From: a virus
IMG/VR virus record: IMGVR_UViG_3300017917_001172
Span: 1 to 64,000 of that record
Length of the DNA stretch: 64,000 nt
Strand: one strand, 5' to 3'
Shown here: piece after piece, positions 2,684-5,909 of the stretch
Position numbering within the stretch: position 1 is the stretch's first letter
Layout of the letters: the number at the start of each line of letters is the position of its first letter
Translations under genes and position numbers: made by a program
Notes under the pieces: generated by a model
Database searches by the model: none
What the model saw: only the letters and a program-made list of their open reading frames with translations
What the model was told of the DNA's origin: nothing

Positions 2684-3202
2684 ATGACCATATTTACAGA
2701 AAACAAGTACACTCGTTGGTATCATAGCATCATCTATCGAGCAATAGCAAGAACCACAATTGGATACTCCGAGACACACCATATCATTCCAAAAAGTCTA
2801 GGAGGATCAAACGGTCCAGAGAATCTTGTAACACTTACAGCCCGAGAGCATTTCATATGCCATTTACTGCTAACAAAGATGGTAGATGGTTCAGCAAGGC
2901 ACAAGATGTTATTTGCACTGTGGCGAATGGTTCACGGTAATTCAAACCAAAACAGACACAAGATTAATAGCCTGCAATATTCAAAAATCAAAGCAGCAAT
3001 GGCAGAATCAATTGCAGTTCAGAATAAAACACAGGTGCCCTGGAATAAAGGTAAAAAGACCGGGCAGGTTCCTTGGAACAAAGGTCGAACCAACGTTATG
3101 TCTGCTGAAGCACGGCAGAAGATCAGCGATTTTAGAAAGACATGGCGGAAGAAAAAGTTGGTGGGGATTGAGGGACTTGAACCCCCAACCCATCGATTAT
3201 GA
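2684..3202 (+). CDS. HNH homing endonuclease with NUMOD3 repeats
   Basis: N-terminal HNH core (ETHHIIPKSLGG, then N and the H of REHFICH, residues about 30-65) followed by two PWNKGK/R repeats of NUMOD3 type and an SAEARQKISDFRKTW helix, the DNA-binding part of many phage homing endonucleases. It is an isolated plus-strand gene with GGGAG before ATG at 2684, in a more AT-rich stretch than its neighbours. Its last 14 codons run antisense through the tRNA gene at 3159-3236, so the ending GIEGLEPPTHRL is tRNA sequence read backwards and not a domain. Likely a selfish free-standing endonuclease that inserted beside the tRNA. Confidence 0.8.
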   Translation: MTIFTENKYTRWYHSIIYRAIARTTIGYSETHHIIPKSLGGSNGPENLVTLTAREHFICHLLLTKMVDGSARHKMLFALWRMVHGNSNQNRHKINSLQYSKIKAAMAESIAVQNKTQVPWNKGKKTGQVPWNKGRTNVMSAEARQKISDFRKTWRKKKLVGIEGLEPPTHRL

Positions 3203-3236
3203 GTCGATTGCTCTAACCTGATTGAGCTAAATCCCC
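3159..3236 (-). tRNA. tRNA with CAU anticodon, probable tRNA-Ile2
   Basis: Complete cloverleaf on the minus strand. The acceptor stem pairs GGGGATT with AATCCCC, the discriminator is A and CCA is encoded. D-arm is TAGCTC...GAGCA, anticodon loop CTCATAA and T-loop TTCAAGT. CAU reads AUG (Met) or, with lysidine at C34, AUA (Ile). The closing anticodon stem GA/TC, as in E. coli tRNA-Ile2, and the tilS gene 29 bases upstream in the same direction favour the isoleucine AUA reader. Elongator tRNA-Met remains possible. The encoded CCA is followed by a run of five T, which may end transcription. Confidence 0.88.
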
Positions 3237-3264
3237 ATCTTCAACTTATACTTAACTATAGCAC

Positions 3265-3858
3265 CTAGCTGACAGCAGTCAACTTCTTCTTGATTGTTTT
3301 TTGGATGCCTGGGTTGACCCGAAGCACGTGATCCATCATCTCATGCCTGATGTAGTTGCGGGTATAACGGGTGTCATAGTTGCTCTCGTCCGTGTAGAAC
3401 GGAACGTTCTTGGTCGTGCACCAATCTAGCAGATCCTGCTTGGTGTTGAGCATGAATGGACGCAGGACCTTACCGCGGCAATATTGCGGCAGCTTGGGCT
3501 GACCATGCAAGCTGGACCAGATCCATGTCTCCACAGCATCGTCTAGGTGATGCGCAGTGACCACGGTTCCATCTAGGTAGTCGAAATACTTGTAGCGTTC
3601 ATCGCGCCAATATTCCTCAAGGCTTTCGTCCTTGCGGCGTTCTCTCATGACAGCACCGTCGACTAGCGGAATGTCGTTCAATGAACAATACTTCGTTAAG
3701 AACTCCAGAGCACGTAGGCTTGACTGAGTTCCATGATCAAAGAAAGCTGCCGTCACTTCATGATTGCGCCTCAAGAAGTCGAGTGCAGCCATGCTGTCTA
3801 CGCCGCCCGAACAGGCGACGTAGAGCTTTCGCGGCAACTTTCCAAGAAGCTTGATCAT
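3265..3858 (-). CDS. tilS: tRNA(Ile)-lysidine synthase, minimal form
   Basis: N-type ATP pyrophosphatase that attaches lysine to C34 of tRNA-Ile2(CAU) so that it reads AUA. Seen: PP-loop SGGVDS at residues 17-22, AHHLDD at 102-107 followed by ET, and the TilS signature RNYIRHEMM at 167-175 preceded by TDESN. At 197 residues it holds only the catalytic domain; most bacterial TilS proteins exceed 300 residues and carry extra tRNA-binding domains. ATG overlaps the stop of the upstream DUF992 gene (TAATG). The substrate tRNA gene follows 29 bases downstream. A TtcA-type thiolase is less likely because the RN-x-IRH signature is specific to TilS. Confidence 0.88.
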   Translation of the reverse strand: MIKLLGKLPRKLYVACSGGVDSMAALDFLRRNHEVTAAFFDHGTQSSLRALEFLTKYCSLNDIPLVDGAVMRERRKDESLEEYWRDERYKYFDYLDGTVVTAHHLDDAVETWIWSSLHGQPKLPQYCRGKVLRPFMLNTKQDLLDWCTTKNVPFYTDESNYDTRYTRNYIRHEMMDHVLRVNPGIQKTIKKKLTAVS

Positions 3859-4352
3859 TATTCCTTGGTGAGAGTCATGGTTGCTACACCAGCAGCAACG
3901 TTGAGACCAGTCTGCATGCCAACGCTGAGCGGCTGCAGGGCGATGCTATCCTTGAAACCACCAAGCATGGCATTGGCAGAGAGGCCAGCCACAGCAGTTG
4001 CTTCAGCACCAACGCCAGCGTAAGAACCGTTCAGGCTGTGTGGCTTGCTGTTACCTGGAGCAAGGACTGCCCAAACAAGGGTCTGGCCCTTGGTGACACC
4101 GATGTCAACACCGATGCGCATGAGCTGAGCAGAGTAAGCGATTTCCTCGCCGTTAAAGCCCTTGTAGTAGCAGTTGGCTTCGCGTGAGCTACCGATGACC
4201 CAGCCAATGTTCTTGTCAACTGCGCAGGTCAGCGTACCAACCTTAAGCCATGAAGAGCTCTTAGCAGAGTTTGCGTCAGCGGCTACCGCAGATCCTGCGA
4301 TACCAGCTGCTAGTGCGATGCCAGCCAAGCCAGCCATTAGATTCTTTACCAA
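3858..4352 (-). CDS. Exported DUF992-family protein
   Basis: Signal peptide (Lys then an Ala/Gly-rich hydrophobic stretch, cleavage near AVAA) followed by one DUF992 domain: KVGTLTC near the N-terminus, then GWVIGSSR, GVDIG, LVWAV, LNGSYAG, and the C-terminal SIALQPLSV...GLNVAAG. DUF992 proteins are small secreted proteins of Rhizobiales and relatives with unknown function. TTG at 4352 is the likely start because AGGAG lies six bases upstream; the first ATG is five codons later and badly spaced. It lies between the tmRNA and tilS and overlaps tilS by one base. It points to an alphaproteobacterial host. Confidence 0.8.
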   Translation of the reverse strand: MVKNLMAGLAGIALAAGIAGSAVAADANSAKSSSWLKVGTLTCAVDKNIGWVIGSSREANCYYKGFNGEEIAYSAQLMRIGVDIGVTKGQTLVWAVLAPGNSKPHSLNGSYAGVGAEATAVAGLSANAMLGGFKDSIALQPLSVGMQTGLNVAAGVATMTLTKE

Positions 4353-4373: not shown

Positions 4374-4696
4374 AGGTGGGGGAGATTCTGTTTCCAAGCT
4401 CTCCCCCGGGCTCATGTTAGGCCGCTAGGGCCAAACGAGGTGCAACGTTGTCGTTAGCACTTATTCATCGCGCTGTAAAGTCAGTCGCCTCACTGTAGAC
4501 TCCAGTGTCTCGTCTTCATACCGTCGAATCCTATGTCGCCCCCATCAAAAACACAACCCGCTTTGCCTATTTCAGCTTATCCAAGAAACGACCTAGCATG
4601 TTTGCAACCATGTGCTCTAGGCGGCTGTGCTTTTGGTGGAGGCGCCGAGAACTGCCCTCGGGTCCGATATGCGTCTAATCGCTATCAACGCCTACG
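4374..4696 (-). ncRNA. ssrA: Circularly permuted two-piece tmRNA
   Basis: Reading leftwards, the acceptor piece comes first (about 4695-4634) and ends in the T-stem CCGAG/CTCGG, the acceptor strand CGCCTCC and ACCA. An intervening loop follows (4633-4544). The coding piece starts at 4543 with GGGGGCG, which pairs over 7 bp with CGCCTCC (one G-U), then the tmRNA consensus GGATTCGACGG. The tag frame at 4458-4417 reads ANDNVAPRLALAA and then TAA, ending in the ALAA-type degron. The coding piece closes with an 8-bp hairpin, GGGGGAGA/TCTCCCCC (4407-4378). This order, acceptor before coding, is the permuted form known from alphaproteobacteria. tmRNA frees stalled ribosomes and tags the unfinished protein for proteolysis. 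Confidence 0.92.
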
Positions 4697-4901
4697 TCTT
4701 ATTTATATGCTCATCTTTAGGGGTTGTCAATATTCTGCCCCAATTAATGTTGGCCCACGCCCGTTCGTGGAAGTAATAGGCAATGGTTTGAATGATATTA
4801 ATGATAATTGCTGCTTCCAAGCCGACCCATAGGTAAGCAATAATTGTAGCAAGAATTCGCCAAGTGATAGCCTTCACGATTGATCTAGTCTTTGTGTCCA
4901 A
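4692..4901 (-). CDS. DUF2061 small membrane protein
   Basis: 69 residues with two hydrophobic helices (about residues 13-30 and 31-48) and the family pattern T-R-S-I-V-K-A-x-T-W-R at the N-terminus and YYFHERAWANINWG near the C-terminus. DUF2061 proteins are inner-membrane proteins of unknown function found in bacteria and in cyanophage-like viruses. The start is TTG at 4901 with AGGATAGAAA before it. Its last 39 bases carry the promoter of the tmRNA. Its role in infection is not known. Confidence 0.8.
   Translation of the reverse strand: MDTKTRSIVKAITWRILATIIAYLWVGLEAAIIINIIQTIAYYFHERAWANINWGRILTTPKDEHINKT
4702..4730 (-). promoter_or_regulatory. Strong promoter for the tmRNA unit
   Basis: TTGACA-N17-TATAAA; the -10 region also reads TATAAATA, the T4 late consensus, so the unit could be read by host holoenzyme and by late transcription. 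It lies inside the 3' end of the upstream DUF2061 gene. Transcription would continue through DUF992, tilS and the tRNA. Confidence 0.75.
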
Positions 4902-5126: not shown

Positions 5127-5424
5127 CGTACATCAGTTGGTACATCATGATCGCTTGGTCGATCTCTTCCTTGCAGGCAGCATAGTCCTTGATCAGCTTC
5201 TTGTAATGGTCAGTCAGCTTGCGCTTCCTGCGGCAGGTGACCATCTCAACTGGGATCTGCCTAGCAAGCTTCTCCCAGTTCATCATGAGTCGATCGATCA
5301 TGACCCAGTCCCTGCGGCAATCAGCGGAGATCTCGTAATAGGGCACGTTTAGGATCGACATGTATCTCTTTCGATCCAGATAGTGATTCGACATGTCAAA
5401 GCCAACTTCGCCATATGTGATCAT
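5122..5424 (-). CDS. Hypothetical protein, 100 aa
   Basis: Soluble, helix-rich protein with two Cys in separate halves and a Lys/Arg-rich centre (CRRKRKLTDHYKK). ATG at 5424 overlaps the stop of the L,D-transpeptidase gene as ATGA, so it is translated with it. No domain recognised; cotranscription suggests a link to envelope work but does not prove it. Confidence 0.65.
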   Translation of the reverse strand: MITYGEVGFDMSNHYLDRKRYMSILNVPYYEISADCRRDWVMIDRLMMNWEKLARQIPVEMVTCRRKRKLTDHYKKLIKDYAACKEEIDQAIMMYQLMYG

Positions 5425-5852
5425 GGAACAACCCGCACGATGGTGTTTTCTTGTCCAAAGTATTTCACGATGTCAAACAAGTTCTTGGCATATTCTGGAT
5501 GGAGCCTAACGCAACCGTGGCTGGCAGGGCGGCCCAAACGCTTTAGGTCATAGGTCGCATGTATGGCATATCCGCCATGGAAGAAGATGCTGTGGGGCAT
5601 GGGAGCATCGTCGTACTTCCTGCTGTACCACATCTCTTCCATGCGCTTTACAGTGTATTCACCTGTGGGAGTATTGTATCCTGCCCGTCCCGTAGAAACG
5701 GGCCAAAGTGCATTACCGATAGGTGTCTGCACGTACATCTCCTGTTCCGAGATGTCCACGGTGATGTCAACGTAGGCTTGTTCCTGGGCTTGCGCAAAGC
5801 CCGCCGAGAGCATGAGAAATGCAGCGGCTAACCAACTGAACTTGCGACGCAT
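5421..5852 (-). CDS. Exported L,D-transpeptidase (YkuD domain)
   Basis: Periplasmic YkuD-family enzyme that makes 3-3 peptidoglycan cross-links or attaches proteins to peptidoglycan through meso-DAP. Seen: signal peptide residues 1-22 (MRRKFSWLAAAFLML...AQA), then the YkuD core with H98 (YAIHAT) and the catalytic signature SHGCVRL with H112 and C114. The frame is open 19 codons further upstream, but MRRKFSW at 5852 has GGAG six bases before it and begins the signal peptide. Alphaproteobacterial walls often hold L,D-cross-links, so the enzyme may strengthen or alter the wall during infection. Confidence 0.85.
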   Translation of the reverse strand: MRRKFSWLAAAFLMLSAGFAQAQEQAYVDITVDISEQEMYVQTPIGNALWPVSTGRAGYNTPTGEYTVKRMEEMWYSRKYDDAPMPHSIFFHGGYAIHATYDLKRLGRPASHGCVRLHPEYAKNLFDIVKYFGQENTIVRVVP

Positions 5853-5909
5853 TTGTGGCTCCAAAAAGTCAATGATGCCTAACAATAGCACCAACAAGGT
5901 CTCCGTCAA

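Follow-up and report, generated by a model that had tools for sequence, protein, structure and literature searches.

The window, by which we mean the whole 64,000-nucleotide stretch analysed, comes from a viral record of 78.5 kb, which represents a fragment of a large T4-like phage; the window has genes for terminase, RNR, a DnaB-type helicase, a UvsX-like recombinase, and tail and head proteins. The terminase shares approximately 54% identity with its counterparts in Pseudomonas PA5oct-type large phages and approximately 50% with those in Sinorhizobium Phosso and Agrobacterium Atu_ph07. ARAGORN called a circularly permuted tmRNA gene of the alphaproteobacterial type on the minus strand at 4375-4734, and the locus has the following features:

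4692..4901, minus: DUF2061-like membrane protein gene upstream of the tmRNA, TTG start (translation)
4725..4730, minus: -35-like TTGACA, 17 nt before the TATAAATA box (sequence)
4700..4707, minus: TATAAATA box, T4-type late motif or -10 like (motif comparison across phage tmRNAs)
4634..4695, minus: tmRNA acceptor piece with encoded CCA at 4636-4634 (RF04321 alignment; 5' end approximate)
4544..4633, minus: intervening segment, 90 nt, not part of the mature tmRNA (tmRNA piece boundaries)
4551..4630, minus: structured RNA element R1, with P1, a P2/P2b hairpin with GUUGCAAA loop, and a P3/P4 arm (covariation, folding, model)
4375..4543, minus: tmRNA coding piece (RF01849 alignment; 3' end approximate)
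4417..4458, minus: tag reading frame ANDNVAPRLALAA-stop (ARAGORN, sequence)
4378..4407, minus: 3' terminal hairpin GGGGGAGA...TCTCCCCC with conserved TGGAAACAGAA (sequence, RF01849 alignment)
3858..4352, minus: DUF992 protein gene downstream of the tmRNA (PF06186, 146.6 bits)

The tmRNA gene and its phage setting

An earlier note, made from the sequence alone, had described a phage-encoded, permuted two-piece tmRNA, and this description was borne out by covariance models, by the phage context, and by synteny in a relative. Both Rfam models for permuted alphaproteobacterial tmRNA, the search that the note had proposed, matched the gene above their gathering scores (RF04321, 103 bits, E 6e-19, gathering 47; RF01849, 82.7 bits, E 7e-21, gathering 50), far beyond chance. 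The sequence features it had listed are all present, on the minus strand, which it had not named: the acceptor piece precedes the coding piece, the GGGGGCG/CGCCTCC acceptor pairing is found with the coding piece opening in GGGGGCG at 4543, the tmRNA consensus GGATTCGACGG lies at 4531-4521, and the tag frame runs from 4458 to 4417. This frame has both the resume codon and the hydrophobic Ala-Ala end by which the tag of a permuted tmRNA is recognized. Read from the sequence, the acceptor pairing (GGGGGCG / CGCCUCC-ACCA) contains G3-U70, the alanine identity pair, for alanylation. The TGGAAACAGAA motif of the 3' hairpin recurs in other phage tmRNAs; a molybdenum riboswitch match at this hairpin (15 bits, against a gathering score of 36) was taken as chance.

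Like the alphaproteobacterial tmRNAs of RF01849 and RF04321, the window gene has the acceptor piece, CCA, TTCGACGG, an ANDN tag start, an LAA end, and the 3' TGGAAACAGAA. It differs from them in being shorter after the tag, where some 40 model positions are missing, in a tag that is absent from GTDB genomes, and in an intervening segment that carries a structured element. A colinear relative (G008; TerL 74% identical, some proteins up to 91%) encodes a permuted tmRNA at the same locus, with the same flanks: a DUF2061 gene upstream and DUF992 downstream. Contamination by a host genome is ruled out by the surrounding phage genes and this colinear phage relative. SmpB (PF01668) had no match in the 78.5-kb record, itself a fragment, so SmpB is presumed to be supplied by the host. 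From tmRNA type and neighboring genes only, we infer an alphaproteobacterial host.

The earlier note regarded phage tmRNAs as rare, but by 2021 a phage genome database had already yielded 53 two-piece tmRNAs out of 133 unique structures (PMC9004378), and another list contains 79 phage tmRNAs (PMC11915505). The window tmRNA gene itself thus belongs to an already published type, the phage-borne permuted tmRNA (PMC9004378, PMC11915505). With Methylophilales phage Melnitz, in which a two-piece tmRNA was reported, and with pelagimyophages, the window shares a permuted alpha-type tmRNA in a T4-like phage, although its gene context (DUF2061, DUF992, TilS) is unlike theirs (PMC9004378). The Melnitz tmRNA, too, is coupled with a second RNA; that one, however, is a predicted glutamine riboswitch and lies in the 3' domain (PMC9004378), whereas the second RNA of the window is an uncatalogued three-way junction within the segment that is excised. 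ARAGORN found approximately 20 more distinct permuted tmRNAs in the viral contigs examined here.

The earlier note had also proposed that the gene has its own strong promoter. The elements it named, TTGACA (4730-4725), a 17-nt spacer, and TATAAA (4707-4702), are indeed present; however, the conserved box is TATAAATA, and the -10 hexamer ends in A, so that a strict sigma-70 scan (TTGACA, 16-18 nt, TATAAT with its final T) did not list the site. Measured from the CCA end, TATAAATA lies at -74 to -81 in 10 of 22 distinct phage permuted tmRNAs, against an expectation of 0.03, and several of these tmRNAs also have TTGACA at the correct spacing; over the whole window the box is not clearly enriched (3 found, 1.35 expected). 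The T4-type late promoter motif has been given as TATAAAT (PMC9004378). Because the conserved box is TATAAATA, late-type control of the tmRNA is no less likely than control by a strong promoter of the sigma-70 type, and one box could possibly serve both early and late transcription.

A third suggestion, that a phage copy alters the degradation tag, survives in part. The exact window tag was found in none of 84,980 GTDB species genomes, searched with a fully degenerate pattern, and is present in five viral contigs, but it ends in the usual LAA degron. The tag of G008 is ANDNFVRNEQIAQSIVVRDRDLVAA, unlike that of the window; the locus is thus retained as its tag drifts. Tags vary across phage tmRNAs but end in LAA or VAA. 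One further permuted phage tmRNA (L118) has, according to ARAGORN, a 28-residue tag, DNTSIKTESAFPAFDDDMDFAMEYALAA.

A conserved folded RNA in the intervening segment

R1, which the earlier note did not mention, is an 80-nt three-way-junction RNA inside the 90-nt intervening segment. An exact 25-mer search found it in four viral contigs and a looser pattern in one more. The distinct copies number five: three in tmRNA intervening segments (the window, G008, and G053), one in a tRNA-Cys/tRNA-Asn spacer, and one in another tRNA region. In G050, a T4-like phage record of 169 kb whose TerL is 30% identical to that of the window, R1 fills the tRNA-Cys/tRNA-Asn spacer inside a long perfect stem. In G051, the other tRNA-region copy, no tool-recognized tRNA directly adjoins R1; just downstream lies a 60-nt tRNA-like sequence (L212, 4180-4240), with an apparent acceptor stem and T-arm, that received no tRNA call. 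All five R1-carrying phages encode a permuted tmRNA, separate from R1 in G050 and G051, and each record has a single R1 copy. Another contig (L213) fitted the looser pattern and was rejected, since the site is embedded in unrelated sequence and the R1 model does not match it. Two of the three tmRNA-borne copies come from colinear phages, and a terminase closely related to theirs (L014) occurs in the sample that yielded G053; the tmRNA-borne copies may therefore reflect one lineage.

The five copies align without gaps over 80 columns, with an almost invariant core and covarying stems. In the three-way junction 98.4% of cells are paired, as against approximately 40% in slid controls. Two-sided changes occur in 11 of 25 pairs, a level reached by none of 500 shuffles, and 17 cells carry two-sided compensatory changes. 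The P3 and P4 pairs scarcely vary, and these helices are supported by folding, not by covariation; folding energies on their own are unremarkable (z approximately -0.9). Core invariance was partly built in by the exact-word search, but invariance extends beyond the 25-mer (to GUUGCAAA and GGUCGUUUC), and the second half was not required by the looser pattern. Such a core suggests that R1 may have a specific partner.

A model of R1 scored the copies at 102-107 bits and everything else at no more than approximately 16 bits in 1.6 Mb; against 50 phage records, it matched only the known G008 copy. As neither search found diverged copies, these data do not distinguish strong constraint from recent horizontal spread. 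No Rfam family matched the R1 region at E up to 10, the glutamine riboswitch included, nor the other two R1 contexts (G050, G051) at E up to 5, and a catalogued riboswitch or ribozyme was therefore rejected. R1 is absent from INPHARED and PLSDB (blastn) and from GTDB genomes (exact 25-mer). As an antisense to its own phage, R1 showed no long complementary match and no excess of 11-14-mers, save one local sense match in G051.

Intervening segments and tRNA spacers compared

We compared the pieces of the phage tmRNAs pairwise, with gaps counted. Among the three R1 carriers the intervening segments are 86-90% identical (window and G008, 90%; window and G053, 88%), the acceptor pieces 57-70%, and the coding pieces 53-65%. 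Over 190 pairs of distinct phage tmRNAs, median identity of the intervening segments is 50%, approximately the level of unrelated sequences under this gapped alignment, and similarity clearly exceeds that of the acceptor in only three pairs, all among R1 carriers. Conversely, the tmRNAs of two pairs (L088/L094 and L097/L126) have acceptor pieces that are 100% identical and coding pieces that are 91-94% identical, yet their intervening segments are unrelated. A second element appears in both kinds of place: 39 nt of the intervening segment of L120 match, at 90% identity (E 2.5e-6), a tRNA spacer in the same phage that carries R1 between tRNA-Cys and tRNA-Asn:

L230 19790-19896 (G050 139790-139896): second element, G050 copy, in the tRNA-Trp/tRNA-Pro spacer

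Unrelated segments within tmRNAs of identical acceptor, together with the L120 element in a tRNA spacer, point to cassette exchange at the tmRNA intervening site.

Nesting of one RNA gene within another has been seen before, in a permuted tmRNA whose intervening sequence contains a tRNA-Ala (PMC11915505); the nested gene there, however, is a standard tRNA, from a single MAG of nominally archaeal origin, whereas R1 is a non-tRNA structured RNA in five phages. R1 can also be likened, by description only, to RNA C and RNA D of the phage T4 tRNA cluster, with the difference that it occurs inside tmRNA genes as well. Those two, likewise distinct from tRNAs, are small and stable, derive from a tRNA precursor, and have no assigned role.

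What the intervening segment may be for

The reading that we favor, with a probability of roughly 0.6, is that the window encodes a working phage permuted tmRNA whose excised segment carries R1, a small phage RNA flanked by processing sites of the tRNA type. A single transcript would be cut by host tRNA-processing enzymes into the acceptor and coding pieces; together with SmpB, alanyl-tRNA synthetase, and tail-specific proteases of the host, both pieces would then free stalled ribosomes during infection. The same cuts would release the intervening segment with R1. We place R1 between processing sites because it occupies equivalent positions, the tmRNA intervening segment and the tRNA-Cys/tRNA-Asn spacer, in differing phages.

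Alternatively, R1 may act solely in cis, as a folding or processing aid or a ligand sensor that steers cutting of tmRNA or tRNA precursors, with no life after excision. Phage tmRNA intervening segments do retain an outer stem adjoining the CCA and the 5' end of the coding piece, P1 of R1 is that stem, and tRNA-type ends adjoin R1 in at least four of its five copies. Most phage tmRNAs nevertheless lack R1, and the unrelated sequences of their intervening segments indicate that maturation needs no special sequence; moreover, R1 matches no known riboswitch, and directly downstream of the tRNA-array copy there is no gene, just tRNA-Asn. We therefore consider a role in cis unlikely, although a serious contender. 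Less probable still is that R1 brings the phage no benefit and, as a small cassette of a selfish or mobile kind, spreads by recombination between tRNA and tmRNA spacers, as the near-invariance of its core in phages with terminases only 30% identical, and the segments that differ between tmRNAs of identical acceptor, might suggest. The compensatory changes imply instead that the RNA fold has been kept over time, each record holds one copy, and no endonuclease gene was noticed adjoining R1.

As for the tmRNA, it could be a relic with only a passive presence, or could act, instead of rescuing ribosomes, as a dominant inhibitor of the host tmRNA. A CDS-less, and thus tag-less, tmRNA of phage DS6A does inhibit the endogenous tmRNA (PMC11915505), but the window tmRNA is intact in its acceptor, G3-U70 pair, LAA-ending tag frame, and 3' motif, and the gene is kept in G008, making either fate improbable. 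Finally, we reject a peptide-coding role, in place of a structural RNA, for the conserved stretch: one frame (LEHMVANMLGRFLDKLK-stop) is open in all five copies, but its ATG is absent in two, the core codons show nearly no synonymous changes, base pairing accounts for the variable sites, and tblastn with this frame gave no convincing relative (E 6).

More speculatively, tmRNA intervening segments and the spacers of tRNA arrays may be places where phages keep small structured RNAs of at least two families (R1 and the L120/G050 element). Such RNAs would be swapped as cassettes and released by tRNA maturation, and during infection they would act in trans, perhaps on translation or by serving as decoys for host defenses that sense tRNA or RNA; we put this forward as a possibility against which the odds still lie. 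What is new here is a conserved, folded, uncatalogued RNA in a tmRNA segment that is normally discarded, recurring between tRNA genes of unrelated phages. Were the excised segment to accommodate other RNAs, phage small RNAs could be sought in a region now regarded by annotators as waste, and tRNA arrays would acquire a second layer of content. Given the pattern of swapping and the shared elements, this idea can be tested with existing metagenomes and RNA-seq of infected cells.

Neighboring genes

In the L082 contig, a homolog at the place equivalent to that of the DUF2061-like gene matches PF09834, and a DUF992 homolog is the second gene downstream of the tmRNA; a homolog search with the DUF992 protein returned nothing. 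A TilS-type lysidine synthetase is encoded at 3159-3858 on the minus strand (TIGR02432, 110 bits, cut-off 93.6), immediately before a tRNA with a CAU anticodon, likely tRNA-Ile2. The same pair is found in G008, and PA5oct-type phages also encode TilS. Among the isoleucine codons in the coding genes of the whole record, AUA occurs 287 times, AUC 435 times, and AUU only 108 times, even though third positions elsewhere are often U, and the genes divide into AUA-rich and AUA-poor sets. This skew fits a phage-borne TilS/tRNA-Ile2 pair. At 5421-5909, also on the minus strand, lies a gene for a protein with an L,D-transpeptidase (YkuD) domain, possibly related to the cell wall. In several phages (L082, at 1889-2110; L222, L088, and L207) the tmRNA is followed by a gene for a small protein whose first part includes EIRLELLKLAQ; this protein had no Pfam or PHROG match, and its position resembles that of the transcription coactivator adjoining ssrA in Melnitz.
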